Source of the DNA: Agelas oroides
Lineage: Eukaryota; Porifera; Demospongiae; Agelasida; Agelasidae
NCBI GenBank assembly: GCA_949130485.1
Contig: OX422190.1
Coordinates: 681,001-745,000 of the forward strand
Direction of reading: 5' to 3'
DNA: 64,000 nt
The position numbers and the translations under genes were made by a program. The notes beneath the pieces were generated by a model, which was not told where the DNA came from, searched no databases, and saw only the letters and a list, made by a program, of their open reading frames with translations. This document shows positions 3,451 to 44,490 of the stretch, in pieces. Position 1 is the stretch's first letter. Each line of letters opens with the position of its first letter.

Positions 3451-3914
3451 TTGTAGTTGGCCTCTTCTCAGTTTGTAGTTGGCCTCTTCTCAGTTTGTAG
3501 TTGGCCTCTTCTCAGTTTGTAGTTGGCCTCTTCTCAGTTTGTAGTTGGCCTCTTCTCAGTTTGTTGTTGGCCTCTTCTCAGTTTGTTGTTGGCCTCTTCT
3601 CAGTTTGTAGTTGGCCTCTTCTCAGTTTGTAGTTGGCCTCTTCTCAGTTTGTAGTTGGCCTCTTCTCAGTTTGTAGTCGGCCTCTTCTCAGTTTGTAGTT
3701 GGCCTCTTCTCAGTTTGTAGTCGGCCTCTTCTCAGTTTGTAGTTGGCCTCTTCTCAGTTTGTTGTTGGCCTCTTCTCAGTTTGTAGTTGGCCTCTTCTCA
3801 GTTTGTAGTTGGCCTCTTCTCAGTTTGTAGTTGGCCTCTTCTCAGTTTGTAGTTGGCCTCTTCTCAGTTTGTAGTCGGCCTCTTCTCAGTTTGTAGTTGG
3901 CCTCTTCTCAGTTT
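3451..3914. repeat. 22-bp minisatellite, about 21 copies
   Basis: Unit TTGTAGTTGGCCTCTTCTCA plus GT, repeated head to tail with a few substitutions (TTGTTG, AGTCGG variants). A related single copy occurs near 4073 in the duplicated neighbouring sequence, so the array probably arose from one unit of that sequence. Confidence 0.95.
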
Positions 3915-17892: not shown

Positions 17893-19584
17893 TTAACAGA
17901 GAGTCTTTGCCATCATTTCTAAGTTGCTTTTGTCCACTGGCATTGCATTTCCACAAACACACAGCTTCCTCAGAGTCTGTCCACGGCTTGTTTTCTCCCA
18001 CTCACAGTAGAGTTGATCAAGATGCCCTGCTTGAAGGTGACAGTTCTTCAGCACCAGCTCTAGTTCAGAGAGGTGGGGGAGATGGAAGATAGCATCTAGG
18101 AGTGGACTATAGCTAGCTTTTACAATGATTGAAGAAAGATCAAATCCTGAAAGATCAAGGCATCGCAATGTTCCAGTCCCCTTTTCAAGTGCTGTGGTGA
18201 GCTTATGAATATCAGCAGGGTCTGGCCAGGGATACCTTGAGTGAAGCCCGAACTCTTGGATGCCAGGGTACAAGAGAATTCCAGAAGCAATATCTATTTC
18301 TTCCTCTATTCTGCAGTTGATTACACTTAGAGACTTTGTGTGTACAGTACTCTCTGAAGTGTATGTTATGTCCGTTCTTTTATTAAAGCTGTGAACACGC
18401 AAGTTCCTTAGTACTAATTGTTGCTTTCTGCAGGCAGTGGACTTCAAAAACTGATATTCAACATCAAGCAGGTCAGAAGCCTTAACATGAAGGTTTTCAA
18501 GAATAAGACACTGAAAGTTTGGCTTTTGAAAACAGCTCGCCATCACCTGAAAGATTTCTTTGCATAAAGAGAGACCGGTACGTAAAAAGTAGGTATTTAT
18601 AGCTGAAATCTCAAGAGTTTCCAAATGTTCTTGGCTATTAATGATAGCTGTAAGTTCTTTAATCTCCACAGATTTCAAGAGCCTGAAATTTGCTGCAATT
18701 TTCACCACCTTTAGGCTTAAGAGTGGAACTACATCTCGGTTTGGAGAGAAGAATGGAGCAATGGTACTGATCACCTCACCATACTTTTGATAAGAGCAAT
18801 CACGGCCGATATTTAGGTAAAGGTCCTGCAGTGTTGAAGGATTTGAGACCAGACCCTTTAGAAGACCTTCTAGGAAGCTGCTACTGCATTCACTGAAGTA
18901 CTGAGAATCACATATCTCCAATGTGTAAACATGGCGAAGTAAGTACTGAAATGGTGCTTTTGTAATGATTGACATTTTGTTTACTGGCAGTGTGACTAAA
19001 ACTCCTTCTAGTTTAAGTGGAAAAATATTCAAAAGCGCTGTTACAGCTTCAATGAAGAACGAGTTAAGTTTGGCTAGTGGTGACCAATAAGCAAAACACT
19101 CGAGATATTTTGGTGAACAGTAGAATTTGTAATATCTGCAATCACTGCACCAACAGAAGTTGTATGTGATCTGCTGAATTACACCTTTTCTTCCCGTGCT
19201 TACATTTTCTTTGAAAGGCACAGCAAACAGAACACGACATACCCCTACTTTAGTCAGAATATTCGTCTGAGAACTACTAATGGAACACGTGCACTCGAGC
19301 TCATCTTCAAATCTAAGTGTGAGTGTCGTGGGTTTAGTTAACCATTTTGTTGCCTCACAGAGCCGCTCCTTGAGTATCTCCTTCCAGAATTTATCCACGT
19401 CAATACCTTCGGTTACTGATGGGGGAAGTCTGTGGAGGTCCACCAGCGGGAGGAGAAGGAACACTCTTCGTCGTTGAAGAGGAGGGAGGAGGGCCAATGC
19501 CTTCAACGGGAAACTTCCCGCGGATATGAGGGACAGAAGGAAAAACAAAACTTGCTGGAAGAGTGCAACCACTTCGTCCTCCAT
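17893..19584 (-). CDS. Leucine-rich-repeat-type protein, unidentified subfamily
   Basis: A single-exon frame; I start at the ATG at 19584 (MEDEVVALFQQ), giving 563 aa. The open frame continues 50 codons upstream, but that part (LASFPG, WERGYE) is a translation of a family A MITE and is probably 5' UTR. Residues about 20-50 (FPLKALALLPPLQRR, then LLLPLVDLHRLPP) resemble the N-terminal BC-box/F-box-like start of LRRC14-type proteins. The C-terminal two thirds contain spaced leucine motifs (LETLEISAI, LRCLDLSGF, LSELELVLKNC) typical of irregular LRRs. By analogy it may recruit a substrate to a cullin ligase, but this is inference. I cannot name the subfamily. Absence of introns next to intron-rich genes suggests an expanded or retroposed lineage gene. 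Confidence 0.6.
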   Translation of the reverse strand: MEDEVVALFQQVLFFLLSLISAGSFPLKALALLPPLQRRRVFLLLPLVDLHRLPPSVTEGIDVDKFWKEILKERLCEATKWLTKPTTLTLRFEDELECTCSISSSQTNILTKVGVCRVLFAVPFKENVSTGRKGVIQQITYNFCWCSDCRYYKFYCSPKYLECFAYWSPLAKLNSFFIEAVTALLNIFPLKLEGVLVTLPVNKMSIITKAPFQYLLRHVYTLEICDSQYFSECSSSFLEGLLKGLVSNPSTLQDLYLNIGRDCSYQKYGEVISTIAPFFSPNRDVVPLLSLKVVKIAANFRLLKSVEIKELTAIINSQEHLETLEISAINTYFLRTGLSLCKEIFQVMASCFQKPNFQCLILENLHVKASDLLDVEYQFLKSTACRKQQLVLRNLRVHSFNKRTDITYTSESTVHTKSLSVINCRIEEEIDIASGILLYPGIQEFGLHSRYPWPDPADIHKLTTALEKGTGTLRCLDLSGFDLSSIIVKASYSPLLDAIFHLPHLSELELVLKNCHLQAGHLDQLYCEWEKTSRGQTLRKLCVCGNAMPVDKSNLEMMAKTLC

Positions 19585-19654
19585 CGTCTGTATATGCGCG
19601 TACCATGGTACGTGTTTGTTCATGCAAAAAAAAATCTTCCACGTGGTCGGTTCA

Positions 19655-19712
19655 TAGCCTCGTTCCCAGGTACTGCAAGCGATGATGGCACAAAGGCCTG
19701 GGAACGAGGCTA
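19655..19712. mobile_element. Family A MITE, short palindromic copy
   Basis: TAGCCTCGTTCCCAGG at the left and CCTGGGAACGAGGCTA at the right are exact complements, with 26 bases between. It lies just upstream of the LRR gene start; a further half copy is at about 19872-19890. Confidence 0.85.
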
Positions 19713-20011
19713 GTAGGTTGATGGTCGACGTCATGACTTTTACATAACATGATGATGAAAGACTGTGGACTCACTGCTCATTCTCATGCAGGTTCCTCCC
19801 CTGTGAAGGTAAAGTTGCGAGGAGCCTGGGGACAAGGCCTTCTCGCTGCAAGCAGTCAAAAACTGGACAGTGGGAAGGCCTGGGAACGAGGCTAATAATG
19901 CCACTAGTATACAGTGTAGTATACATCATAAACAATAATATAGTACATCATAAACAAAATAATAAACCACCCAACAAACTACTAAAATTAAAATGTGATA
20001 TAAAAAGAGAG

Positions 20012-23000
20012 CTACCACAGGGAATGGAGGTGTAAGTTCCGACTGAGTACGGAGCGGACGTCACTGGTGAATCTGAGGGCGTCCAACACTGGGAGGAGTT
20101 CCAGGAGAGCCGTGTCATGTGGGTCAGAGAACCAGGACTTGACTGGAATAGCATTATCTGTTTCAGTGGTAAGCAGACATATTACATAATAATGTTTGCA
20201 CCAAAAAACCAACTTGAAACTGTGTTTTGATTAGTCAAAATTAATATCATATTAGTTGACGTAGACAATAGTCTTTTCCTGCTTGGTCGCCATTACCATG
20301 GTAACAAGATATTCTTCCCCCTTTGTCAAAGCCGTATAACTTTCCACAAATATGCTAAAAGCTTATTTGAGCGCCCAGCCTTCCTCTTTGAGCACTTTTA
20401 TGATCAGCAAGACTCATGATTATAGTTTCCCAAAAGCCTCAGCGGAAGACAGCTAAATGCAAAAGTGTGCAGTAGTGAAAGTGCCATTTTTGTTATTCTT
20501 TACCACAAAATTGATGCTCATCACAGCATGCAGCTTCACATAACATACATAGGTAGTAGCATGTACATGAAGTAGTGTAGTGTCACATGTCGGCGGCAGG
20601 AAGTTTGCATAGCAACATGAAAGTGAATCCAGATCATAAGCAGAAAGTAAATTGTGTGTTTAGGGCCTGTGCCACCTGCACAGTCAAATAGCATACACCT
20701 GTATTATCGAAGACGAACTATTAGTTTGTCAAGTTGTGTGTAGAGTAAGGTATAATTGGAGTGAAGGTAGGAGGGAGAAGCTGGCATTCCCCCCACCCCC
20801 ACCCCCTCCAAAAAAATTTTTAACTGTTCTAGTCACTGTCATTTTTTCTCACCTTTCTCACGTCTTTATTTCTCACCTTTCTTTCTCAGTGACTTTGACC
20901 AGGTTAAGGTCCGACTGTCAGGTCTGGAGCATGTTAAAATAACTGAGCCTGCGCCTCGCGCTTCACGCTTGCCGCACACTCCACCCCCCCCCCCCCCCCC
21001 CCCCAAAATTTAACCGCTCTGCCTATCGGAATTCGGCTTTTTCACCCACTATGGAAATTACCATGGTATATTAACTCATAGCTCACCTGGGTTGCTTCTG
21101 TACGCAGCAGGGGAGTTATCCAGGATAAAAATACTGGAGAGATCCGGGTTTATAGTGGCCAAATCTTTCGTGTAACCATTGAAATCCATCGTACAGTGCT
21201 GAAGGTAGAAGGTAGGAAAAAAATCTACCCTAAATAAAATTTTAGGCTATTGACCCTGAACACTAGCCTTGTTCCCAGGCTTCTGGCCTCAGTATTTGCC
21301 ACTGGCAGCACTAATAACGGTAGTCTCGTCCCCAGACCCCACCCTCTCACGAGGAGAAACATTCTGGTGAACCAAGTCGAACTTCTTGGGCTAGCGCATA
21401 CTTTTGTGACAGTGTCACCTAGCAATGTTCAACGCCAAATCCGCTCAAAAAAGGTATGGATACTCGAGTAGCAATAAAAAATTTGACTGTTGTAAGGGAA
21501 GTGCTACGTAATAATTACCAATCTCGCAATCTCATTGGTCCTGACCACTTTTGGGGAATCAGCCCAAGAAATTCGTTCACCAGACCATTTCTCGCCGGGA
21601 GGTGTGCGCAGGCTAGGCACGAGACTATAATAAGGGCTACTGAGTACAAGTAAGGGCACATCGACTGATAAGCCCTCGTACAAGGCTGGTGCATACCTGT
21701 CTGAAGTATCGTCTCTGGAAAATAGTTCTGTGTTTGCTTTTATCAAGTTTATCTGCAACTGCCATTCCATACATCTGAAATGAAAGATTAAAACATGAAG
21801 GAATCAACGTTACATCACATATGTGGTACTTCACAGACTTGCAAGGACTGAGTTGTCACTGTGCGTACCTCCATACTAGCAGTGAATATTACCAGATCAT
21901 ACATTGTGCGTACCTCCATACTAGCAGTGAATATTACCAGATCATACATTGTGCGTACCTCCATACTAGCAGTGAATATTACCAGATCATACATTGTGCG
22001 TACCTCCATGCTAGCAGTGAATATTACCAGATCATACATTGTGCGTACCTCCATACTAGCAGTGAATATTACCAGATCATACATTGTGCGTACCTCCATG
22101 CTAGCAGTGAATATTACCAGATCATACATTGTGCGTACCTCCATACTAGCAGTGAATATTACCAGATCATACATTGTGCGTACCTCCATGCTAGCAGTGA
22201 ATATTACCAGATCATACATTGTGCGTACCTCCATACTAGCAGTGAATATTACCAGATCATACATTGTGCGTACCTCCATGCTAGCAGTGAATATTACCAG
22301 ATCATACATTGTGCGTACCTCCATGCTAGCAGTGAATATTACCAGATCATACATTGTGCGTACCTCCATACTAGCAGTGAATATTACCAGATCATACATT
22401 GTGCGTACCTCCATGCTAGCAGTGAATATTACCAGATCATACATTGTGCGTACCTCCATGCTAGCAGTGAATATTACCAGATCATACATTGTGCGTACCT
22501 CCATACTAGCAGTGAATATTACCAGATCATACATTGTGCGTACCTCCATACTAGCAGTGAATATTACCAGATCATACATTGTGCGTACCTCCATGCTAGC
22601 AGTGAATATTACCAGATCATACATTGTGCGTACCTCCATACTAGCAGTGAATATTACCAGATCATACATTGTGTGTACCTCCATACTAGCAGTGAATATT
22701 ACCAGATCATACATTGTGCGTACCTCCATACTAACAGTGAATATTACCAGATCATACATTGTGCGTACCTCCATGCTAACAGTGAATATTACCAGATCAT
22801 ACATTGTGCGTACCTCCATACTAGCAGTGAATATTACCAGATCATACATTGTGCGTACCTCCATACTAGCAGTGAATATTACCAGATCATACATTGTGCG
22901 TACCTCCATACTAGCAGTGAATATTACCAGATCATACATTGTGCGTACCTCCATGCTAACAGTGAATATTACCAGATCATACATTGTGCGTACCTCCATA

Positions 23001-26000
23001 CTAGCAGTGAATATTACCAGATCATACATTGTGCGTACCTCCATACTAGCAGTGAATATTACCAGATCATACATTGTGCGTACCTCCAGCTAGCAGTGAA
23101 TATTACCAGACCATACATTGTGCGTACCTCCATACTAGCAGTGAATATTACCAGATCATACATTGTGCGTACCTCCAGCTAGCAGTGAATATTACCAGAT
23201 CATACATTGTGCGTACCTCCATACTAGCAGTGAATATTACCAGATCATACATTGTGCGTACCTCCATACTAGCAGTGAATATTACCAGATCATACATTGT
23301 GCGTACCTCCATACTAGCAGTGAATATTACCAGATCATACCACTTGCTGACCTGCAGGGAGAAGAACACGACTACAGTGCCAAAGTGTATTTCAAAGCTC
23401 TAATCTGATTGGTTGGGTCAGGGTTGGATTAGGGTTTAATTTAGGGTGTTGTTAGGGTAACAGTATATACGCACATATATTGACCAATAGGATTAGAGCT
23501 TTAAAAGTTCTTCGGAGTACCTCGAACACGAAGCCACAGACACTTTATTCCCAGGGTCCTCCCCAGTTTTCACTGCCTCACTGCTCCCTACTTGCTTACT
23601 ACCATGCATACAGTACGAGGCAAATGCTTGGGAGGAGCACAGTGATGCTGGAGAGGAATCTGGAAGTGAGGCTACATCAGCTAGCTACACAGTCACCGGC
23701 TGGCAGCCAGATCGAGCACCACAATAATTTTAACACATTGATGCATTATCACATAGGAGGCAACGCTGCAATCTTACTGTGAATGAACAATCAACGATCC
23801 CCACTGCAGGACATGAGCGGCATACCACTGACATTTTAGGAGAGGCTATGTCAGTGACTCCAGATTGTTGCTTCAACTATATAAATGTTGTTACTACCTT
23901 CTGTTAAGCATACACACAGATGATATGGATATGATAATTGTAACAGACTTTCCTTGGAATAAAATCTTAGCCTCATTCACAGACTCCGCTTTCGTCACAT
24001 AAGACTAGGCAAACTAGATTTATTGTTTCGCATCACTGCCCGCTTCCTTTGAGACTTGCCACCTCTACTGTCATAGCCGTAGATTTGCTGATCTTGTATA
24101 TGCCGTTGCTCATAACAAATAATGAATAATGACTGCCTTCCTGCATGCAAATCGAGTAAGTAGCTGATGTGAAAACAATAGATCTAGTTTGCCTGGCCTA
24201 ATGTGCGCAGATCCTGAGATTGAACATACACTCTCACACTTTCACTCTCACCTTGTCCAAAAAGTAGTCAACATGAGGTCGCTTGTGTACAAAGAACCTC
24301 ACCGGGTGGTTCTCCACTCTAACCTGAAGTCAACAAAGAAAGAAGCAGGATTAAGAGATGATATTTCCAGGTAGAAATACGTTAAAATTCACCAAAGGCT
24401 ATCACTAGATGAAGAGCACCTTCATTACAATGTTATGTACCGTCTACAAAACTGAGACAGTGCCAAACGTTACCATCAGCGAAGGAAACAATATCATTAT
24501 CCAATATTTTGACTATACAGTACTTTGACTGTCTTCATAGACTGTTTTCTTTTCACTGGCAATAAGTTTGACTAAGTATCACCACCTCAGATGGAGTCAA
24601 TGGGGAAAGCTTGCAGCTGTGTGTAGTCGATAAAAAACGAGGGCTTATCGGTCGATGTGCCCTTACTTGTACTCAGTTTTTTTACTACTTGTGACGCGAA
24701 AATCCGTATCAGGTACTACAAACCATGTGCGCTGCGTCTGAACATGCAATGAAACCGAAGGTTCGTATGATAAAATCATTATCACCATAGTACCAAGCTA
24801 TGCCGAAAAAAAGTTTGTTGCCGTCTGTATTGTTACGAGTGCGCAGCTTTGTACTATGGTGATACTTATATAGTACAATGACTTTTCTGAGAATCTGTCA
24901 TGATGACAAAGCTTACCCGTACAATGAAGTCTGGTGGTGTGAGTGGAGTAAGGGGGTTGATAGATCTGGAGAACCAATAGGAAAATCAATATGAGATACA
25001 GTTGGTTGCTTAGTAACCACAAACATTACTCACCCATCATGGTGGGAATGGATAAGGGTCTCGTCCAAATCAAGAACCATGATCTTTCGCCGAACAGAAT
25101 CTATGAAGAGTAATAATAACATCTGATAACTAGCAATTTAGAGGCTTGCACTTCCTGTTTAGAGGCCAAATGCAGCCCTCTAATTGGTCAAATCTTACAT
25201 CTAGAAGAACATCTACATGTAAATTTCATTTATATGTTATGTTCATGAATCTCCAGTTCTCACTCTGCACATGTCCAGTGCTAGCCTCGTTCCCAGGCTT
25301 TCTCCTCAAGAAATGAGGGGGGAGGAGAGCCTGGTAACAGTCACATGAAAAACTGTCAATGGGGACTCACACTAGCCCAACCTGGCCACTCTACACACTG
25401 CCCTGAACTCCATAAATAGGCCCAAGAGGTGGGGAAAGGTGAGCTTATCACACTTACACAGTCTGGTCTCTGTGAGTGGAGATAGCCGGCAGTTATAGTA
25501 GCGGACAGCTTGATATTCTGCAGCCTAGAATGAGCGAGAGAGGGAATGGGGGAATGAGGGGGTGAGTGGGATAGTGGGTAAGTGGAGATCAGGAGGAGAG
25601 GAACACGGGGACTCATAAAACACAGTGAATGATGCTTGATTTGGGGTCCGAGTGGTTTAATGGTAAGAGCGTCTGACTAGTATTCAGAAGGTCTTGGGTT
25701 CAAATCTCAGCTGGATCCCGGATTTTTTTTCCATGGATTTATTTCTCACTCTCTCAACAAAAACATCATCGTTCAACAGTGAATGATGTTGGAGAGGCTG
25801 TGTTTTTGATAAAATGTAGTTAATTGTTTGTTGGACCTGGACCAAGGTTCATCAGCTGCAAAATGTCTGGGAAGCCTGTCTGCGTTTTTGCTGCTGATTA
25901 GCAGTTGATTAAACACACTTGATCCAAACCATGACAACTCAGTAATTCACTCAACAGCTCTCTGACATTCAGCAATGTAGTTATGAGTATATAAGTGATC

Positions 26001-27279
26001 ACAGCACAATAGTTCAAAGAAGGACCACCATTACTAACATACTCCTTGCAAGATTAAAAAGTTTACCCTCAAGCCAAGAATCTAATTACAAGTTATGAAT
26101 TGCATAATCACAAAGCATGTGTTGCACAAAATTTAATATTAGCATGATTTCCACTAAATGCGCAGCAGAGCTTTACAGGAACATTTGTGAGCAAACAATC
26201 TAGCATTTCATGCACAAAACTTCGTCATGTGAGATACCTTCATCTAATATACCCACACAATCTTTGGCCCAAGAGGTTTATATAGTTAAGATTTAATTGT
26301 CGAGACAAAGGATATTTTTCTCTCATTTTTCAAGACTAAAGTGAAAATAATTAGGCTTGGGTGGATGCTAATTGGTGATAATTGTAGATACTTAGAGGCA
26401 GGACATGTAAACAGTTAGTTTGGGCATAGTGGAGGACTCTACTATCTACGGTTTGGGCTGCCCAATAGACCTTATGCAATTGACGTCATCACCTCATGTA
26501 ACAAAACGTGAAACGGATAGTGGACGGAAATGCAGATACTACACCACCATTTTGAGTGGTAAAAATGACTGCAGTCTATGGAGCTTAAGTGGAGCAGTTA
26601 GCGAGCTCCTTCTCACCAGCGCAGAAACTGATTTTACATTTACAGCCAGAATGCACAAGGTCTCAACAAAGCTCACCGAAGTGAATAAGCTTACCTGCAT
26701 GCCTCGTTGACGCAGTGAGCTCACAAAGTGCTTCGCTGTACTTAAGCTCCATAGACCGCGGTCTTCCTTGCCACTCAAAATGGCGGCGTAGTACCCGTAT
26801 TTCCATCCACTGTCCGTTTACATTTGGTTACATGATGTATTGCATAAGGTCTATTTAGCCAGCTAATTATGAATGGCTAACAGAGGCCGTGCTCAAACAT
26901 GCACACATACGTGGTCAAAATCTATACTTCAGTCTCATGATAGATAGTGGACTATCTATGGTCTCATGTCCTGACTGCAAATCTGCCATTTGATAGGTCT
27001 CAACAGATTTGAAACATAGTGTGCTTTAAATAGAACATAATCCGACTACACAGTTTGTAAAAGGCTTGAAACCACACATCTTAGGCTCTTAGTCCATGCT
27101 AAAACAATCACATATCTTGACAGCCAGGTACGTACATAATTAGCACCACCTAACACATCCACACCCACTGACACAGTCTCTCTCTTCCAATCCCCCACCT
27201 TTCTGTAGCTTAGTCGCAGCAGACCAAGTACCAGAATACAGACGCGTTTGATGAACTGCAAGAGGGCACCTAGAACCAT
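20012..27279 (-). CDS. CTDNEP1: CTD nuclear envelope phosphatase 1 (Dullard)
   Basis: Nine exons in transcript order: 27279-27199, 25524-25458, 25100-25034, 24965-24917, 24323-24252, 23351-23307, 21774-21697, 21198-21087, 20157-20012. They sum to 717 nt (238 aa; human 244). An N-terminal hydrophobic segment (membrane hairpin or anchor) is followed by YQAVRYYN, motif I DLDET (D60, D62, T64), [14 protein letters not shown], motif II FTAS in exon 6, RRYFRQ, DNSP (about residue 180) and the C terminus [20 protein letters not shown]. The family is a HAD/FCP-type Ser/Thr phosphatase of the ER and nuclear envelope that dephosphorylates lipin with CNEP1R1. The start at 27279 gives an N terminus nearly as long as the human one; the frame is open further upstream. 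Exon 6 (45 nt) is extended by a huge tandem array, annotated separately. The promoter is shared head-to-head with SLC33A1. Confidence 0.95.
21321..21627. mobile_element. TAGTCTCG-family MITE (family B), best copy
   Basis: 307 bp between TAGTCTCGTCCCCAG and GGCTAGGCACGAGACTA. The flanks TAATAACGG and TAATAAGGG look like an imperfect 8-9 bp target duplication, as for hAT elements. It lies in the CTDNEP1 intron between exons 7 and 8. Confidence 0.8.
21640..21679. repeat. 40-nt inverted repeat, arm 1
   Basis: Complementary to 24637-24676 at 39 of 40 bases. This arm lies in CTDNEP1 intron 7, 17 bases after the exon 7 donor site. Confidence 0.95.
21862..23351 (-). repeat. 45-bp array built from CTDNEP1 exon 6 and its donor site
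   Basis: The true exon 6 is 23351-23307, after a CCCTGCAG acceptor and before GTACGC; it encodes [15 protein letters not shown]. From the donor on, a 45-bp unit repeats 32 times: GTACGCACAATG followed by the same 33 exon bases TATGAT...ATGGAG. Donor sequences recur at spacing 45 from 23306 down to about 21868, 33 in all. Two units (beginning on the plus strand at 23076 and 23165) are 44 bp. Variation is low: mainly a synonymous AGT/AGC, and three units with ACT-GTT-AGT giving TVS in place of TAS. Read through, a unit encodes [15 protein letters not shown]. Confidence 0.97.
23394..23503. mobile_element. Short MITE
   Basis: AAAGCTCTAATC plus ATTGGT at the left is repeated inverted at the right. 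The core contains several TTAGGG-like words. In CTDNEP1 intron 5, next to the array. Confidence 0.6.
24637..24676. repeat. 40-nt inverted repeat, arm 2
   Basis: Complement of 21640-21679 with one mismatch; lies in CTDNEP1 intron 4. The two arms enclose exons 5, 6 and 7. Confidence 0.95.
25282..25342. mobile_element. Family A MITE, short copy
   Basis: TAGCCTCGTTCCCAGGCT at the left; GAGAGCCTGGTAAC at the right is its damaged complement. In the CTDNEP1 intron between exons 2 and 3. Confidence 0.65.
25638..25775 (+). mobile_element. tRNA-derived SINE
   Basis: The head folds like a tRNA. The acceptor strand GGGGTCC pairs with GGATCCC. An A box (TGGTTTAATGG) and B box (GGTTCAAATCT) are present, and the anticodon stem TCTGA/TCAGA encloses loop CTAGTAT, anticodon AGT (Thr). 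Two extra bases between T stem and acceptor, and a weak D stem, argue against a working tRNA. The 13-bp ACAGTGAATGATG occurs on both sides (25622, 25776), as expected for a retroposition target duplication. In CTDNEP1 intron 1, opposite strand. Confidence 0.7.
26460..26860. mobile_element. Foldback element with about 140-bp arms
   Basis: From AATAGACCTTATGCAAT at the left to its complement ATTGCATAAGGTCTATT at the right, both arms run about 140 bp with moderate divergence. The centre, about 115 bp, shows no recognised domain. In CTDNEP1 intron 1. Confidence 0.8.
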
Positions 27280-31300: not shown

Positions 31301-34300
31301 TACATGACAAACCACATGCACACTTACGTGCAGACACACACTAACTTACACACACTTGTCCATGCACACACCCACACATGTTATTCCACACACTCATCAC
31401 ACACATACTCTCGTCTCAGTCATGCAACTGCAGGGCCACGCCCCCTAGACGTCTTCCTCAAAGCCTACTTCCCTCGAATGGTGATGAGTTTGATCTTTGC
31501 CCTCCTTGTGTGGTGGACCTCGTTTGTTGGCAACAATGGGGAATTCCCCTTATACTATTACATTGTCATTGTGGCAGTCTTCGCACTACACCAGGTTTGA
31601 ATCCAGGGGAGGATAGAAGCTAGTAATTAGTAGCCACTGTGAATAAAGGCCCATAGTGAAATCTAACCAGACTACATTGTATCTCCCCTCCTTTCTCTCC
31701 TCTCTCCTCCTCCCCCTCCTCCCCTCCTTCCCCTCCCCCTCCTCCCCTCCTTCCCCTCCCCCTCCTCTCCCTCCTCTCCCTCCTCTCCCTCCTCCCCCTC
31801 CTTCCCCTCCCCCTCATCTCCCTCCTCCCTCTCCTCCCCTTCCTCCTTCCCCTCCTCTCCCTCCTCCCCCTCCTCCCGTCCTTTCCCTCCTCCTCCTCTC
31901 CCTCTCCCCTCCTCTCCCTCCTCCCTCTCCTCCCCTTCCTCCCTCCTCCCCCACCTTCCTCCTCCTTTCTCCTCCCAGGTGGCAACTTACTCCATGTTTG
32001 TTTCCAGTATGGCCTTCCATGCAACAATAAGTGACCCTGCCATCGGAGGCACCTACATGACCCTTCTCAACACCATTGTGAATCTGGCTGGCACATGGAC
32101 AGGGACACTCGCCCTGTGGCTGGTGGACAGTGCATCTTTCAAGGACTGTGAGGGTGTCACGGATTACCGCCTGGATTGTGACACACTTCAGGAGCTCAAG
32201 GTGTGTGTATGTATGTGTGTGTGTGTGTATGTGTATGTGTGTGCGCATGTGAGTGTGCGTGTGCATCCCTGCTGATTCTAAATCTCTGAGCATCTTGGGA
32301 TACGGTTATACTTTGATCAAAGCTACACTGTAGCCAATCATAGTGCAGAGTGTTTTGGAGTAGTTTGTTGCCAAATATTATATTGTTCAGCTGTAAAAGA
32401 TTCTGCCTCCCACCGCCACAAGACAATGGAACTTTCAACCAAACTCAACTTTATTAGACAACCAACAATCCAACTGAATTTCGACACCCAAATACAGAAC
32501 AGATGAGACCTTAAGGTTACGATGAACACCTGTCCTATCTCAGAATTCAATAAATGCGCTTGAATGTCAGCGTTATAACTCTAGAGTGCTTGGAGGTATT
32601 TTAGCGCTTCAAAAGCCTATGGAGATACCGAAGACCAGGCTATACACAATGCTCTTTTGGTCATAACAGCTCTAGCAGCTTATAATCCACACCATCCAGA
32701 ACAAAGCCTTCACATAAACTCTCTTGCGTCAAATTTCTGCTTACTGACGGCCCTCAAACTCACCGTTTTCGGTTATTAGTCTCCTAGCACAAGTATCTAG
32801 GTCGAGTCGATGGCAATTTTCAAGCAGCGCTCGAAATGTAGGCGCTACATAAAATTTTGAGTAGCATTCTTCGTAAACCACGACCGAAAAAGCCATTTTC
32901 TGACGGTTTGTCCAGAACTTTTTTGGCAAAACTTGACGAGTCGACCTCGAAAATTTAGTACGGAAGGCCGTAGAGCTGTTATCTTCCGCAGAAAATAGAA
33001 GTAGTTCGCTAAAATTGACGCAAAGTTAGTAACGGTAGGAATGCATTCGGTCATGAATATAATTATAAATAAGCGCGCGCACAGCTTGTTCATCGTAACC
33101 TTAAATAGCTTACAAATCCATGATATAACCTGTTACCTAGGCAACATCTGAGAATGTTGCTAATATCTACAGTGAAGTTGCCTAGGTAACGGATTATATA
33201 ACCCTCCCTGGGGGTGGTCTTACACATTGGTGTTGGGCTACACTGAACACTAATGTGTAAAATGACCACCATGTAGAGAACACACCAAGATTATATCAAA
33301 AGGATGACTTACATCCAATCACATGACGGCTCATATGATACATGTGCAACCACCAGATCAAGTTGATGACATCATACAAGGGGAATACAATATGAGTCAG
33401 TATCCTACACATGCCCCAGGGAGGATATAACTATTACATAACAGAACCAAACAATATCCTGGACTAGGAACATAACAGAACCAAACAATATCCTGGACTA
33501 GGAACATAACAGAACCAAACAATATCCTGGACTAGGAACATAACAGAACCAAACAATATCCTGGACTAGGAACATCTGGTTACAAAAAGGAAACCACATG
33601 TACAAATATTAGGTAATCAACTAAAGAAATGTCACAGAATGTCGCCCACAAGATACAAGGATAAAGGATGACCTAGGTGACCAACAAAGTTGCACAACTC
33701 CCATTAACTCTAGCTAGCCTGACACCTGTGACCTAAGCCTACTGATTGTACAAAGATCATACCTCAAAAGTCAATTAGCTAGCAAATACAAGTCATGAAC
33801 TAAATAATATATATTAAAAATAAGATATCGGCAATCGGCAGCCTACCAGACCTTGTGCTATGCCTATGCATGTGTGTTGGGGTGAGTGACAAGTACTTCA
33901 GGAATAAAATAACAATGTTCAGTTAGAACCACAACTCACCAGAATTTATGGGCCAAAGGTCACAAATAATATCTCATGACCACGCCCCTCATCTTGAATG
34001 TGGTAACTGTCAGTACCAAACACTTGTTGCACTGTCAACAAACCATTTCAGTTGATTGAGTTCAATGTTTACAAAACATTTTAGTTGACACTAAGTTCTA
34101 TATCCAGAGCCCAGACAGTTTTTAAGTTCAAGTATAGTTCCAAGTGGCTGTATGTTGGTTTTGGGGTGGAACCCAAGGCACGTTTTTGGTTTGGGGCAGA
34201 CCCAAAGGGCACATTAGAGGCCCCAAAGGGCATCCTTTGGGAAAGGTCTAGCGAGAAACCCTTAATCACCACCACTGTCTTCCTACCCCCTCCCCCCCAA

Positions 34301-35727: not shown

Positions 35728-38700
35728 TTTTTTTTTCAAGAAAGTAAAATAATGTGATGATAATACGTATATAGAGCAAACTACAAAGGAGAAATAAAAA
35801 ATATATAGAATACAACTGTGTGAAAAATGACGACTTAGTTCATAGCTTTTCAAGGGGCACTTGACCTTCGCTGACTACTAGGTCAACCGGCCCATTGTGT
35901 GCGGCGTGTCCGGAAGACGAACGGGCCCCTCGCAGAGAGGTGATGGCTGACCTCAAGAGTGAAAAACTCAGATGGCAACGTAGCCAGGCTATCACAAGGC
36001 TGTACGGTTGGTCTCGCTTCCTTGCCAGCAGGGATGCAAGCCGTTTGTAGGCCACGGAGGCGCATTTCGCCATTCCACCAGAAGTCGAGAACACAAGGGG
36101 AGTGAATGTACCCAGTTCAACCTCGCGAATCCGCTGTTCGTACGTTCTCTGCTTCTCTCTCTCCTGTTTTCGGTAGACTGAGGCTAGCTGGAGCTTCCGG
36201 TGAGTCTGAGCGTTGGGGTTAAAGACCCTTACATCGAAAAATGCTCGCTGATACCGGTTGTCCCAGAAGCCTTGAGCGCTGATATCAAGGCGGGCACCGT
36301 CTTCCGTGTTGGCTGTGGCATATCTGAGTGTTTCACCTGTGAGGGGCTGCAGTGTTGGCTCTAAACACACGTCATGGCACACTTCGGTCATGACTTTTGC
36401 TGTGAAATCCCTCAGCTCATTATGTCTGATGGTTGGGAAGCCTCCAGTGGAGCAACTGAGAGCATGATCAACCGAGAAGGAATGACCACAGACACAATCG
36501 TTGGGTAGGTTGGCCGGCTGCCAGTTATACCGAAGGCACAGGGCATCTCTGAATGCTCCTTTATGCAGTGCAAATCCATGCTCCTCAATGGGTAAGACGG
36601 ACAACCAGGAAGAGGCACCTTTCTCACTACCCAGTTCCATTGCGCGCTGGAGGTGCGTTGGTAGTGTAGTCCGTAGCTGTGTGGCTGTTACAGCCTGTTT
36701 TTGTTGTCTGAGTCGCTTGATTTCAGCCTTTGCACATTGTTGTTCTCGGATGGTGTCGAAGGTGATCTCATGTTGTTGCAGGAGAATGAGAGTGGCAAGA
36801 GGAGCAGTGACTTTCTGAGAAGAGGAAAATTCGTGGGCAGCTGTATCCGTTGGTTTCGTAAGGCCTAGGCCACCGAGTCGGGTAGGAAGAGCAAAGAGGT
36901 CTCTCTCAGCGGTGGTAACACAGCCTTTTCCAGTCAGAGCAGGGATGAAGTGGAGGTTGATTGCTTCTTCGAGGGGCTGCAGTAAGTCTGAGATTTCAGG
37001 GATGGTACGGAGGAAGTATGTCCACTTGCTTGCTAAGCCATGTGTGAAAGCGGAGTAGGCAGCATGTGGTTGGGTCGTGGCAATGGATGCAAGCTTCTGG
37101 ATGGAAGATGTCCATTCCTTCACCTTGTCCTGTATGTAGCTTACAACAAAGGACCTCGAGCCAAGAGCAGCCCCAAGGTGTCTCTTTCCTTCGGTGGTGA
37201 TGTTCACTCCGGTATTCAGAAATCTCTCTGTTGCTGTTGACAGGTGTTTCTCTTTCACGATCAGCCATGTTTTGCTGGGATTGGCAAAGTATCCAAATGC
37301 GGGGCCAAGGTTGTTCAGCTTCACCCACCACTCATGAAGCTGTTCAAGGCGGCCACTAGCCGTGGCGTCGTCAGCAAACCACACTTGCTTTGCATCAGTG
37401 GACTGTAGTTGGTTAATGAGGGGTAGGATGCCTATGGCATACATGGCCATGGCCAGGGGATCTCCTTGTGTCGTCCCCTCACGTGAGAGAAGGGTTTCAC
37501 CATCAATGAACAGCTGTATATCCTCTCTGTATGTGTTCGTTATGACAGTAGCAAGTGAAGGACAGAGATGGTGGATATTCTGTAGGGCAGCTTGACGATT
37601 CAGGCTGTTGAATGCGTTGGTAGCGTCAACAAGTAATACGGCTTCGGATTGCTCATCTTGGAAGACACTACGCATTGCATGGATGGCAGCTTCACTACCA
37701 GCCTCCTGACCCGCACAAAGTTGGAGAGAGCCTGCAGCTTCTAGGATGTCATACTTAATAGCTGCAAGAATGGCTTTGCCAATAATTCTGCGGGAGGTTT
37801 CTCCAATCCCAATTGGTCGTACACCTGGGCATTTGTCAAGGGCTATCAAACGGCTAGCAGTAAGTGGAGCTATACCTCGAGGATCAACATAGTTAGTGCA
37901 TAACTTCCTTGCAACTGAAGCTAAACTGTTGCACAGGTCTGCCGATGCATTTTGAAAAGAAGTGCATAGGCGTCTCCACCCAGTTGAATCAATCCCCGAA
38001 GGACCAGCGGAGCCATTGGTGTGGAGGGCAGCAGTACGGATGCTTGCACCATCTAGACAGTCAAAAACAACTGGGTGAGGTACTGGTCTGGGGGTTGTTG
38101 AGGAGATAAGGGCGTCAGGGTGTGCTGGCTGTCCTGGTGGATGTTTTTTTAGCAACTCGTCACGGACAGTAGTAATCGGTTGATCTGGATGTGTACTCAG
38201 CCTTGTGTCAATGGGGAGTGGTCCTCCTTTTGATTCGTTTGTGAGGATTCGAAGGGCAGCCCTGACCTTTCCCTGCAGCATCAGTTTGGTGAAAAGGCGT
38301 GTAGTTTGTTCCTCCTTACTACTGCGTGCGTGCCTGTGATTCTGTTTGAGGCGGTGTTGTATGGTGCGTCCCTCAATAACGAGATTGTTGATGTCACCCA
38401 TTTGCCAAGAATCGAGTCGTCGTTGTAGGCACACCACATGCTCACGGGCTTTTGATGAAGAGTGTGGTTTTTGAAGGAGCAGTGCAGGCATGACCATGGC
38501 TGCCTTCAGGGCGATGGGTTCGAGGCCAGATCCTTCGCCATATGCGCGAAACAGCCTTGCAAGTTCTGAGGTGAACAGTTTGCCAGCCTTGCCTGAGGGT
38601 GTGAGAAAGAGATTATGTCGCCAATGCACCACTTCTGCATAGGCCGCTGAAATCATCTGAGTAAAGTCGGCTCCATCAACACTCTCAGTCCAGACAAACG

Positions 38701-39212
38701 CTGAGGAGGACAGTGTGATGTAGGATGGTAGTTTGTAAGGAAGAGATGTAACAGAGTCATTGCTATTCATGCTTCTTGCATGAAGTGTAGCTGTTTCTCT
38801 CTGATTTCCTGAATTAGCAGCATGCATTGGGCTACCCAATGGAGCAGGGGTTGGGTACGGTGGGTTCACATCTCCAGCAGGTGGGATGACACCATGACAG
38901 TCCGTGGTAGTGTGGTCACTAGTGTTAACTGTCCCCTCGGGTTCGACGGTTTCTCTCCGAGTTTGGTTCGTTTGGTTCGGATGTGGTGTGGTTGTCCTAC
39001 CATGTGCATGTACTTGTGTTATGTTTGAGCAAGTTCCCTTTCGTCCTGGTAGGCAGCTAGTGCATAGTCTTCCTTCTTTCACACAGGAACAGTTCTTACA
39101 CCGGCCGCTGCCGTTACACCGGCAGCATGAGGGCATGGTGTAGGCAAGGCACGTCTTTCCCTCTCGGACTATCGACCTAGCGTGCGCTCCAAATAGAGTC
39201 ACTATCAGCTCT
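35728..39212 (-). mobile_element. Non-LTR retrotransposon with restriction-like endonuclease
   Basis: On the minus strand it runs from 39212 to a 9-base A tail at 35736-35728. The 10-bp GTCCCAGACC flanks it directly (39222-39213 and 35727-35718), a typical target duplication. Length about 3.5 kb, with one open frame, so it looks full-length. Confidence 0.85.
35840..39136 (-). CDS. Reverse transcriptase with C-terminal restriction-like endonuclease
   Basis: The frame is open from 39202. I prefer the ATG at 39136 (MPSCCRCNGSGRC), giving 1098 aa, because the cysteine-rich N-terminal domain of this family begins there. In the numbering of the longer frame, the domains are: cysteine cluster CxxCxxxGxCxxC at 26-58; reverse transcriptase with LLVDATNAFNSL (D about 525), GTTQGDPLAMAMYAIG (about 576-591) and the catalytic FADD (609-612); and a C-terminal part with a CxCx(8)HxxxxC knuckle at about 900 followed by LDIS...FFDVRV, the layout of the PD-(D/E)XK endonuclease of R2/Hero-type elements. 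Target-primed reverse transcription is the known mechanism. No stop or frameshift is present, so the element may be young. Clade assignment is uncertain. Confidence 0.88.
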   Translation of the reverse strand: MPSCCRCNGSGRCKNCSCVKEGRLCTSCLPGRKGTCSNITQVHAHGRTTTPHPNQTNQTRRETVEPEGTVNTSDHTTTDCHGVIPPAGDVNPPYPTPAPLGSPMHAANSGNQRETATLHARSMNSNDSVTSLPYKLPSYITLSSSAFVWTESVDGADFTQMISAAYAEVVHWRHNLFLTPSGKAGKLFTSELARLFRAYGEGSGLEPIALKAAMVMPALLLQKPHSSSKAREHVVCLQRRLDSWQMGDINNLVIEGRTIQHRLKQNHRHARSSKEEQTTRLFTKLMLQGKVRAALRILTNESKGGPLPIDTRLSTHPDQPITTVRDELLKKHPPGQPAHPDALISSTTPRPVPHPVVFDCLDGASIRTAALHTNGSAGPSGIDSTGWRRLCTSFQNASADLCNSLASVARKLCTNYVDPRGIAPLTASRLIALDKCPGVRPIGIGETSRRIIGKAILAAIKYDILEAAGSLQLCAGQEAGSEAAIHAMRSVFQDEQSEAVLLVDATNAFNSLNRQAALQNIHHLCPSLATVITNTYREDIQLFIDGETLLSREGTTQGDPLAMAMYAIGILPLINQLQSTDAKQVWFADDATASGRLEQLHEWWVKLNNLGPAFGYFANPSKTWLIVKEKHLSTATERFLNTGVNITTEGKRHLGAALGSRSFVVSYIQDKVKEWTSSIQKLASIATTQPHAAYSAFTHGLASKWTYFLRTIPEISDLLQPLEEAINLHFIPALTGKGCVTTAERDLFALPTRLGGLGLTKPTDTAAHEFSSSQKVTAPLATLILLQQHEITFDTIREQQCAKAEIKRLRQQKQAVTATQLRTTLPTHLQRAMELGSEKGASSWLSVLPIEEHGFALHKGAFRDALCLRYNWQPANLPNDCVCGHSFSVDHALSCSTGGFPTIRHNELRDFTAKVMTEVCHDVCLEPTLQPLTGETLRYATANTEDGARLDISAQGFWDNRYQRAFFDVRVFNPNAQTHRKLQLASVYRKQEREKQRTYEQRIREVELGTFTPLVFSTSGGMAKCASVAYKRLASLLARKRDQPYSLVIAWLRCHLSFSLLRSAITSLRGARSSSGHAAHNGPVDLVVSEGQVPLEKL

Positions 39213-39792
39213 GGTCTGGGACTGGGATACGGTCTGAGGACGAGACTACCAGTCTACGTACCACAGACACATTATGCTCAAAATGTACCTATTATTCCCG
39301 CATAATGCTCAATGCTTTCTGGTACCTATTATTCCCAAAATTATGCCAGCATAATCCGCCCAACCCTAGGACCAGCGCGGAACGCTCGCGTAAGCTGTTT
39401 ACGCCGCTGCGATGAAAGGACGCGCGTAAATACGTGCGTAAATAAATCGCTATTTCAGGCGCTCGAGAGTTCACCAGTTGTCTTCCAATGATGTCACCCA
39501 ACCTGCTGCTCTGCCAACCTTAGTACCTTCTCTCTTGGAAAATTCGAAGTCAGCTAGCTTAGCAAATGCGTACGTGGACAGCCAAAGCAATACTCCGCGA
39601 ACCATGTAGCTACTACGGCTCTGCTTCTGTCTCAAAATGGCCTCAGAAGCAATCTCAGAGCATCTAATTTCTAAAATTTTCCTGGGGGAGCATGCCCCCA
39701 GACCCCCCTAGTCTTGCATGCTCATGCATGCATACATACACATCTGACGTGACACCCATGTAACCCCCCTTTTAAAAATCCTGGCTACGGGC

Positions 39793-41135: not shown

Positions 41136-44100
41136 CAGTGAAATTTGTAAAAAGCGGCTAAAACACCAAAAAAAAGGTAGAATTTTTTAAAAAATGATTG
41201 TTCTTACCAGCAGAATTGAAAAGAAGAACGAAAGCGCTTCAATTTGATATGCGTTGTAAGGCTATTGGCCGAAATTTCGACTGTGGGTGCGGGTTTTTAC
41301 AAGACACGTACAACGGTGCCGCATTCAATATGGCACTTCCGCTCCGAAAAGGGTTACGCAATTTTTCACTGTTATGAATATCATTTGGACTCGCTAGCCT
41401 TAGCTAATGTGCAATGCGAGTAAATGAAATTCCTGTGCAACAAGCGGGGCACGGCTGTGACGAAGTTACCAGACCCCTCGAATTCCTTCTCTTGCAGAAC
41501 GGGGTGTTGCCACTAAGACTACAGATAACTGCAGTAACTTCTGTGCCTTACGTGGAGGGCGAAAGCTCTCACTCTGTCCCAATACCTGGTCAACCTAGTT
41601 CTAATAACTTTTCAATTCTCTATTTTAATGCAAGAAGTATCTCACCAAAGCTGGACGATCTAAGGGCTGTGGTTGCAGCTCAGAACCCTTCTATAATTTG
41701 TATTGTTGAGTCATGGCTTTCTGAGGATATATCAGACCTTGAAATGTCAATTGAAAACTATCATCTAACTAGACTTGATCGAAACAGACATGGTGGAGGT
41801 ATTCTCATTTATATCCATGCCTCACTCACCTGGGAAGTTTTGTTAAGGGGTGCAAATGACTTGGAGTTTTTAAGTTTATCACTTACTTCATCTGGTAGTC
41901 TTTCTAAACATTGTGTTTCAGTTTTGTACCGTCCCCCATCCTCACCAGTTTCCTTTTTTGACAATCTTTGTACTACACTTCAATTTTTATCACCCCATCG
42001 TTTTTCCAGTTTTGTACTAGTTGGTGATTTTAATATTAACTTTTTTAACAAAGACCACCCCTATTTTTGTAGACTCCAGAGTATACTCCAGTCTTTTTCA
42101 CTGTCACAAGTTGTACATACCCCTACCCACACAAACTCCAATGGCCACGCCTCTCTAATTGATTTGGCTCTTGTGTCAAACAAAACACAGCTTCTTGACT
42201 GCTCCGTAGTTCCACCTCTCGCAAATGCAGACCACAATGGCCTTGAACTCTTCCTTAAATGGAAGCACTGTGACAAACAAGTACGCATAACACCAAGAAC
42301 AGTTTGGAGGTATAAGGATGCAGACTACAGAAAAGCATGTCAGATGATTGATGAAACAGACTGGGATGGCCTCCTCCACAATGATGATATTGACTGCTCT
42401 GCCATCAACTGGCACAACAGGTTCATGGAAATCATGTCTACTTGCATTCCACAACAATCACTGAAACGCAGGAGGAATGTGCCATGGCTTACAAAGAACA
42501 TTATTCGACACATAAGAATGCGAAATGCTGCATTTCAAGCTGCTAGGGGATCAGCTAAGCCTGCACAATACTCCAAATTCAGAAAACTGCGCAACAAGGT
42601 TTTGAAAATGATCCGAAATGCCAAGTCATCCTATTTCAAGAATCTAAATCCTAGAAACAAAAAACAATTTTGGAAAGCTGTTAAATACCTGAACAAACAA
42701 CAGTCAACCATCCCAACGCTCCACTATCACGATACTGCTGCTGAATCTGACTCTGAGAAAGCTAGTCTGCTCAATGAGTGTTTCTCTGCCTGTTTCAACA
42801 GAGACATTCCTCCTCTCTCACCTACAGATAATGACCATCACACTGTGCATTTCAGTCCATGCTCAGATGAGCTCCTTTGTACAGCTGATGAAGTTCTTTT
42901 TCTCATAATGTCCCTGGACCCATCAAAAGCTAATGGGCCTGATGGAATCTCAGCTCAAATGCTTAAAGGTACAGCACACAGCATTGCTCCATCTCTCACC
43001 AAACTTTTCAATATCTCCATTAGTCAAGGTCGCTTCCCTGAGTGCTGGAAAACATCTTCTGTTGTTCCAATTCCTAAATCTACAAATCGCAGTGAAGCTA
43101 CCGACTACAGACCCATTTCCTTACTCTCAGTAGTAAGCAAAATGTTGGAGCGACATTTTCACCAGTATGTCACCAAACATCTCAATGAACACCACCCACT
43201 ATCCAACAAACAATGGGGCTTCCAGTCTGGCAAGTCAACAGTTACAGCTCTCCTCTCTGTCACTCATGATTGGTTTCAAACACTCGAGGCTGGACAAGAA
43301 GTGTGTTCCATCTTTTTTGACCTCAGAAAGGCCTTCGACTCTGTTCCTCATAGACCACTGGTAGATAAATTAGCCAACCTTGGACTTGATGCTCATGCCC
43401 TTTCATGGATCACCAGCTATCTGACTAACCGGAAGCAACATGTGGTTGTGGGTGGAGAATCATCGCTGGACACACCTGTTCTCTCTGGTGTACCTCAAGG
43501 CTCTGTGCTGGGCCCACTGCTATTTCTTGTTTACATTGATGATGTTTCTGATGTTCTCTTATCAGATGGAAGCACACTCAATCTTTATGCAGATGACATG
43601 CTGTTGTACAAACCTGTAAAATCGATTGAAGACATTCACCACCTGCAAATGGACATTGATTGTATCAGTGAGTGGGTAAGCTGCAATAAGCTAACACTTA
43701 ATCCTACCAAGTGCAAGACCATGGTAATCTCACGAAAAAGGAACTCTGTCCAACCCTATGCACAGTTTGTTTTGAATGGCAGGCCACTTGAGCAGGTAGA
43801 GACTTTCAAGTACTTAGGAATCCTCCTCTCATCAGACCTCTCATGGTCTGCACATATTGAGTCTATCTGCACCAAGGCAAGAAAACTGATTGGTCTGCTG
43901 TACAGGAGGTTCTATGGCAATATTGATGACCACAGCCTACTTGAACTGTACAGTGTACTTGTACGTCCTCACCTTGAGTATGCTGCCCCTGTCTGGGATC
44001 CACACCTCACTAAAGACACTAACAAACTTGAAAGTGTCCAAAAGTTTGCATTAAAAATGTGTTTGAAACAATGGGACCTAGGATACCACGACCTTCTTGA

Positions 44101-44490
44101 CCTGTCTCAGTTCCCTACTCTTGAGAATCGTAGACTATACTTAAAGCTTTGTACTCTTTATAAAATTATACATGGTTACTTTTACTTTCCTCCTAATGTA
44201 TTTGTACCTCAAGTAAGTAGACAAAGTTATTCCTTACCTTTAATACATCAACCACATGCACATACCAATGCCTTCCAGTCGTCTTTTGTACCTAGCTCTG
44301 TTTCTGTTTGGAATCACTTACCCCATGAAGCACTTGCAGCACATTCCATTAATTCATTTAAATCACTCGTTGCACCCTTGTTTTTGTATTCATAACTGGT
44401 TACACACTCGTATTAGCTTACCAGCTATTTGTGTATCCTTGCATTAATGCAAAAAGTTTTATAGAAAAAAAAAAAAAAAAAAAAAAAAAA
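41136..44490 (+). mobile_element. CR1/Jockey-group LINE, apparently full-length ORF
   Basis: It consists of a 5' leader of about 270 bases, one long frame, a short 3' UTR and 26 consecutive A at 44465-44490. The left border is approximate because I could not find a matching target duplication. Confidence 0.8.
41414..44395 (+). CDS. LINE protein: AP endonuclease plus reverse transcriptase
   Basis: 993 aa without interruption. Residues about 66-280 form the apurinic endonuclease (LYFNARSI, ESWLSE, HGGGILIYI, VGDFNINF, then ADHNGLEL). The reverse transcriptase spans about 505-790, with ANGPDGI, FFDLRKAFDSVPH (634-646), GVPQGSVLGPLLFLVYI (692-708) and the catalytic YADD (725-728). The C terminus keeps the usual LINE tail (YAAPVWDPH, VPSSVSVWNHLP). 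No separate ORF1 is seen upstream. The domain order and GVPQGSVLGP motif fit the CR1/L2/Jockey group; the exact clade needs a tree. Confidence 0.92.
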   Translation: MRVNEIPVQQAGHGCDEVTRPLEFLLLQNGVLPLRLQITAVTSVPYVEGESSHSVPIPGQPSSNNFSILYFNARSISPKLDDLRAVVAAQNPSIICIVESWLSEDISDLEMSIENYHLTRLDRNRHGGGILIYIHASLTWEVLLRGANDLEFLSLSLTSSGSLSKHCVSVLYRPPSSPVSFFDNLCTTLQFLSPHRFSSFVLVGDFNINFFNKDHPYFCRLQSILQSFSLSQVVHTPTHTNSNGHASLIDLALVSNKTQLLDCSVVPPLANADHNGLELFLKWKHCDKQVRITPRTVWRYKDADYRKACQMIDETDWDGLLHNDDIDCSAINWHNRFMEIMSTCIPQQSLKRRRNVPWLTKNIIRHIRMRNAAFQAARGSAKPAQYSKFRKLRNKVLKMIRNAKSSYFKNLNPRNKKQFWKAVKYLNKQQSTIPTLHYHDTAAESDSEKASLLNECFSACFNRDIPPLSPTDNDHHTVHFSPCSDELLCTADEVLFLIMSLDPSKANGPDGISAQMLKGTAHSIAPSLTKLFNISISQGRFPECWKTSSVVPIPKSTNRSEATDYRPISLLSVVSKMLERHFHQYVTKHLNEHHPLSNKQWGFQSGKSTVTALLSVTHDWFQTLEAGQEVCSIFFDLRKAFDSVPHRPLVDKLANLGLDAHALSWITSYLTNRKQHVVVGGESSLDTPVLSGVPQGSVLGPLLFLVYIDDVSDVLLSDGSTLNLYADDMLLYKPVKSIEDIHHLQMDIDCISEWVSCNKLTLNPTKCKTMVISRKRNSVQPYAQFVLNGRPLEQVETFKYLGILLSSDLSWSAHIESICTKARKLIGLLYRRFYGNIDDHSLLELYSVLVRPHLEYAAPVWDPHLTKDTNKLESVQKFALKMCLKQWDLGYHDLLDLSQFPTLENRRLYLKLCTLYKIIHGYFYFPPNVFVPQVSRQSYSLPLIHQPHAHTNAFQSSFVPSSVSVWNHLPHEALAAHSINSFKSLVAPLFLYS

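Follow-up and report, generated by a model that had tools for sequence, protein, structure and literature searches.

In a 64,000-nucleotide stretch of the genome of the sponge Agelas oroides (GenBank assembly GCA_949130485.1, contig OX422190.1, positions 681,001 to 745,000; hereafter the window, whose own numbering is used throughout), the predicted gene for the phosphatase CTDNEP1 (Dullard) contains a 45-bp minisatellite of 33 units that starts within coding exon 6, runs over the exon 6 donor into intron 6 and repeats that donor in every unit. The array is far beyond chance expectation; its size is unexceptional against the arrays sampled from the same assembly, and its placement is exceptional. 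Probably, this is an ordinary minisatellite that was seeded across an exon-intron border and has been tolerated because the first of its donors is mainly used.

Tandem Repeats Finder (TRF) delineates a single array at 21860..23340, with a period of 45, 33.0 copies, 97% matches and a score of 2829. Cutting the sequence into units along the minus strand places the start of the array at base 13 of the 45-nt exon 6 (23339), so that it overlaps the true exon end (23307), with the exon 6 donor present in each unit, which is the anatomy of the minisatellites in human IFI6 and ABCA7 (see below). A full unit consists of 33 nt of exon 6 followed by GTACGCACAATG, and the last unit ends in ...CAGTG. Nearly all units (31 of the 33) are 45 nt long, units 4 and 6 having 44 nt; there are 8 distinct unit sequences, and 18 of the 33 units are identical. 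The donor reads GTACGC in 32 units and GTACAC in unit 15, and its GT is present in 33 of 33. The exon 6 acceptor and the first 12 nt of the exon are present once, outside the repeat, and 94 nt of intron remain between the last donor and exon 7. The array and its two shortened units are as follows.

23339..21857, minus strand: 45-bp minisatellite of 33 units; unit 1 includes the final 33 nt of exon 6 and donor 1, and units 2-33 belong to intron 6 (TRF, unit cutting)
23204..23161, minus strand: unit 4, 44 nt; one base is missing, so that donor 4 is out of frame (unit cutting, splicing script)
23115..23072, minus strand: unit 6, 44 nt; a second one-base loss (unit cutting, splicing script)

The preliminary description of this locus, made from the sequence alone, was borne out by TRF, unit cutting and the gene model with respect to the identity of the gene, the borders of exon 6 (23351..23307), the start of exon 7 (21774), the donors and their count of 33. 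Its statement that a coding exon has been amplified goes too far: the repeated part covers only 33 of the 45 nt, starts at 23339 rather than 23351 and lacks an acceptor. The units are not separate exons because the acceptor and the first 12 exon nt are unrepeated; such exons were considered and rejected for want of an acceptor in the repeat, although each unit does have AG dinucleotides, one of them as CTGCTAG.

The exon borders of the host gene, derived from translation and splice consensus, are predicted; the coding region (27279..20012, minus strand) comprises nine inferred exons with GT-AG borders and yields a protein of 238 residues. The predicted protein matches CTDNEP1 chain 8ujl_A with E = 3.4e-95 (321 bits), well ahead of the second-ranking chain, which is an SCP-type phosphatase (135 bits), and it also matches Pfam NIF (PF03031; E = 9e-50) and the NCBIfam dullard-like phosphatase domain TIGR02251 (E = 4.9e-63, 211.9 bits). 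Both the DLDET motif and the FTAS motif II are present, and CTDNEP1 outranks the SCP phosphatases as the best match. The alignment with human CTDNEP1 spans 206 residues, and exon 6 joined at donor 1 produces a 24-residue stretch without gaps.

27279..27199, minus strand: CTDNEP1 exon 1 (inferred)
25524..25458, minus strand: exon 2 (inferred)
25100..25034, minus strand: exon 3 (inferred), followed by the 68-nt intron 3
24965..24917, minus strand: exon 4 (inferred)
24323..24252, minus strand: exon 5 (inferred)
23351..23307, minus strand: exon 6, 45 nt, acceptor CTGCAG, encoding the motif II segment FTAS (gap-free alignment to human CTDNEP1)
23306..21775, minus strand: intron 6 spliced from donor 1, 1532 nt (script)
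21774..21697, minus strand: exon 7, with the acceptor that all array donors face (inferred)
21198..21087, minus strand: exon 8 (inferred)
20157..20012, minus strand: exon 9 (inferred)

A script joined all 33 donors in turn to exon 7, with sharply different predicted outcomes along the array.

23306..23301, minus strand: donor 1, GTACGC, the sole donor giving the normal 238-residue protein (splicing script)
23261..23256, minus strand: donor 2, GTACGC, in frame, 253 residues (+15) if used (splicing script)
23216..23211, minus strand: donor 3, GTACGC, in frame, 268 residues (+30) if used (splicing script)
21868..21863, minus strand: donor 33, GTACGC, 94-nt intron, early stop (splicing script)

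Messages spliced from donors 4-33 are predicted to end prematurely, donor 4 leading to a stop at codon 214 and donors 5-33 to one at codon 180. The emphasis that had been placed on a period divisible by three is thus justified for the unit, whereas the frame of the message is kept for donors 1-3 only, because units 4 and 6 have each lost one base, and 30 of the 33 donors would lead to an early stop. The early stop at codon 180 also led us to reject a single long in-frame exon read through the array. Long open frames do cross the array on both strands because the unit length is a multiple of three, namely 21779-23182 (plus strand, 467 codons), 21852-23093 (plus strand, 413 codons) and 21815-23089 (minus strand), the last of which differs from the exon frame and is free of stops over 424 codons, starting at the end of unit 6; such frames could mislead gene predictors into calling repeat proteins.

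The splice signals were compared using computed U1 pairing energies. The exon 6 donor (-5.7 kcal/mol) is the second weakest of the eight donors of the gene (range -4.9 to -11.1), and GTACGC and GTACAC receive equal values. In intron 6, 32 additional sites equal or surpass the true donor, and every one of them belongs to the array. Their density is 20.9 per kb, compared to 0-8.6 per kb for the seven remaining introns and, per strand, 3.6 per kb for the part of the window that the array does not occupy.

Comparison of the units reveals synonymous, amino-acid changing and frame-breaking changes, with short blocks of unit types recurring along the array. Units of the AGC type are confined to units 17-30 (clustering P = 0.0026), the Ala-to-Val type is found in units 9, 13 and 14 (P = 0.053; both tests post hoc), and the deletion type consists of units 4 and 6. 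A regular higher-order repeat was rejected on autocorrelation, the clustering of the AGC type being the only significant pattern. Taken together, the variants fit a minisatellite that turns over through duplication of local blocks and in which most units are under little constraint, the independent changes being too few for constraint to be tested.

Such arrays are common in this genome. In a sample of 20 stretches of 10 kb (200 kb; arrays with a period of at least 10), 74 arrays cover 8.15% of the bases, of which 2 exceed the one in CTDNEP1 in length; 8 sampled arrays have at least 10 copies and a period of at least 15, with a mean period of 30. The period is a multiple of three in 22 of the 65 sampled arrays with a period of at least 15, or about one third, and therefore a period of 45 requires no special cause. 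By a rough scaling, which assumes 100,000-200,000 donors and random placement and ignores selection, about 10,000 such arrays would be expected in the 259-Mb assembly, one to two hundred of them seeded on a donor. The window itself holds another dense minisatellite at 3451-3914 (22-bp unit, 21.1 copies, 97% matches).

The array was also sought elsewhere in the assembly. A 39-nt array motif has 19 exact occurrences, and all places listed fall in this array; with up to 3 mismatches, there are 31 among the matches listed, again all in this array, the two 44-nt units not being among them. Thus, neither search revealed a further copy in the assembly. A second intact CTDNEP1 locus, which the preliminary description had named as an observation that would undermine it, was looked for in the assembly by a protein search and not found, less surely for short exons because exons 4 and 6 of this very gene were not reported as separate matches. 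The search returned 10 matches, of which 7 are exons of this CTDNEP1; the remaining 3, on other contigs, are 34-35% identical, a level to be expected if they are other members of the phosphatase family.

We propose the following scenario. A 45-bp segment reaching from the last part of exon 6 to base 12 of intron 6 would have been duplicated in tandem and then spread to 33 copies through slippage or unequal exchange of blocks, whereby a formerly short intron 6 would have grown to 1532 nt; the earlier intron was probably short because only 94 nt remain beyond the last donor. Donor 1, which adjoins the true exon and its acceptor, would be mainly spliced, giving the normal protein and removing the array as intron; donors 2 and 3 might be used occasionally, adding 15 and 30 residues, and donors 4-33, if used, would produce frameshifted or stopped messages that are expected targets of nonsense-mediated decay. 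The array would then be close to neutral. In favor of this scenario, the remaining gene is intact, with donor 1 alone predicted to yield the conserved product, and the mixture of change types, the clustered variants and the abundance of arrays in the sampled 200 kb all speak for it. By analogy, the human cases point in the same direction: in ABCA7, retention of one unit, which equals use of the second donor and breaks the frame, amounts to about 2% (PMC5954066), and in IFI6 the 130-residue form predominates (PMC4526556). The preliminary description offered tuning of CTDNEP1 output through donor competition or, alternatively, neutrality with the first site always used; on these precedents, the neutral alternative seems the better bet.

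Several observations weigh against this scenario. All array donors share the same U1 pairing energy of -5.7 kcal/mol, so that donor 1 is not distinguished, and the predicted local accessibility is alike over the 33 donors (0.36-0.46, with 0.41 for donor 1), so that singling out of donor 1 by RNA structure was rejected. The computed features favor donor 1 only by its position beside the true exon and by the need for a working protein. Intron definition could even favor donor 33, because the resulting 94-nt intron is short, a size class that the gene uses in intron 3. The autocorrelation of unit types gives no P below 0.10 at lags 1-11. Finally, the array in ABCA7 does have effects: the longest allele pair shows 33% lower expression than the shortest, the following exon is skipped more as the array lengthens, and in 90% of the cases from one brain region the canonical form is outweighed by the sum of the others (PMC5954066), a figure that speaks against the harmlessness of such arrays.

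These ABCA7 data also bear on the best surviving alternative, under which the 32 extra donors act as decoys that sequester U1 and send a considerable fraction of the transcripts into exon skipping, slow splicing or forms with a premature stop, copy number thereby tuning CTDNEP1 output. We consider this explanation unlikely, even though the true donor is weak, intron 6 is dense in sites of at least equal strength, early stops would follow from most of them and longer ABCA7 arrays accompany lower expression and more skipping (PMC5954066). The decoys bear no sign of selection, one having lost the GTACGC form and two units a base, and in ABCA7 the retention of one unit is independent of array length, with no effect of length on decay seen by the authors (PMC5954066). 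A more doubtful idea, which overlaps with the decoy explanation, is concerted evolution of exon 6 with its 32 intronic copies, in which turnover would overwrite the coding sequence with that of untranslated copies, and the donors of unit 4 and beyond, being out of frame, would act, through decay, as a brake dependent on copy number. The minisatellite copies a piece of a conserved catalytic exon, and therefore array turnover could in principle change the coding sequence.

It appears improbable that donors 1, 2 and 3 are all used, so that CTDNEP1 would be made either without an insert or with 15 or 30 residues added behind motif II. All three are in frame, and IFI6 employs two downstream repeat units as donors, giving three mRNAs (PMC4526556), whereas in CTDNEP1 the motif II strand would be duplicated inside the conserved catalytic domain, presumably with harmful effect, and human CTDNEP1 has no such insert. 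An assembly error in the array or its length, to which tandem arrays are prone, is highly improbable given that these 1.48 kb lie, with single-copy gene flanks and varied units, within a contig of 10,367,247 bases in an assembly of 141 contigs that has comparable arrays elsewhere.

The locus provides a natural assay of 5' splice-site choice, with 33 near-identical donors in a repeated context facing one acceptor; junction counts would therefore reveal the effect of position alone.

Other features of the window deserve brief mention. Intron 1 of CTDNEP1 contains, near exon 2, a tRNA-like sequence (25646-25717, plus strand; Rfam tRNA, 40.7 bits; ARAGORN Thr, anticodon AGT) that is either a tRNA gene or a tRNA-derived repeat; it is the sole match in an Rfam scan of the window at the gathering threshold, so that the minisatellite matches no known RNA family. 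Downstream of CTDNEP1, an open frame of 625 codons (17893-19770, minus strand) has no Pfam match at E 0.001. A second array that would touch a splice signal, a polypyrimidine minisatellite of about 280 bp (31685-31979, plus strand), nearly reaches the AG at 31977-31978 and resembles a 3' splice-site pyrimidine tract; the coding segment right after this AG matches acetyl-CoA transporter 1 (Pfam Acatn, E = 4.4e-17). Reverse transcriptase domains are encoded by two long open frames (35840-39253, minus strand, RVT_1, E = 1.9e-08; 41408-44395, plus strand, RVT_1, E = 7e-36, plus endonuclease domains), which are likely non-LTR retrotransposons.

Among the known systems, mutually exclusive exon clusters of the Dscam type consist of whole exons in tandem, each with an acceptor and a donor. 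The CTDNEP1 array resembles them in that coding exon sequence is repeated in a row within one gene; membership in this class was rejected because exon 6 has a single acceptor and its first 12 nt are not repeated. The fission yeast introns in SPOG_01682 and SOCG_00815 (PMC3629103; PMC4974935) likewise are tandem repeats of exon sequence with splice-site-like sequence, partly removed as intron; those introns are new, whereas that of CTDNEP1 seems to be pre-existing, as its own acceptor and the remaining 94 nt suggest. The AGGT required by the Rogers model of intron gain by tandem duplication is present in the units (GGAGGTACGC), and in this single assembly the 94 nt and the acceptor outside the array point to an older intron rather than a new one within a duplicated exon. 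The MIR137 minisatellite, a variable number tandem repeat (VNTR), is not close to the CTDNEP1 array (PMC6692358).

Among the titles listed by a literature search for CTDNEP1 together with sponges, none concerns such an array, which is no proof that it is unpublished. The phenomenon is already known from human IFI6 and ABCA7, and in its anatomy the CTDNEP1 array appears to work like both. Turri, Cuin and Porter reportedly described in 1995, by their title, a minisatellite providing multiple splice donors in the human interferon-induced gene 6-16 (IFI6/G1P3). That paper (Nucleic Acids Res 23:1854) is cited in PMC2915984, and in IFI6, as in CTDNEP1, a minisatellite lies at an exon end, with units able to serve as serial donors. 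The host gene and the unit differ, and the use of several donors is an observation on IFI6, whereas CTDNEP1 is known from sequence; moreover, the CTDNEP1 unit holds 33 nt of a conserved catalytic exon, and most of its donors break the frame. The human ABCA7 VNTR in intron 18, which has a 25-bp unit in about 12 to 427 copies, begins at the exon 18 donor and is linked to the risk of Alzheimer's disease (PMC5954066), similarly extends from the exon end, includes the donor of the exon and repeats it in each unit. The ABCA7 unit is described as intronic, its first two bases being the donor GT, whereas that of CTDNEP1 additionally contains coding exon, and polymorphism and effects on RNA are demonstrated for ABCA7, the CTDNEP1 array being known from one assembly. 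What is new in the CTDNEP1 array, compared to these two cases, is the size of the copied coding piece and its place in the catalytic motif.

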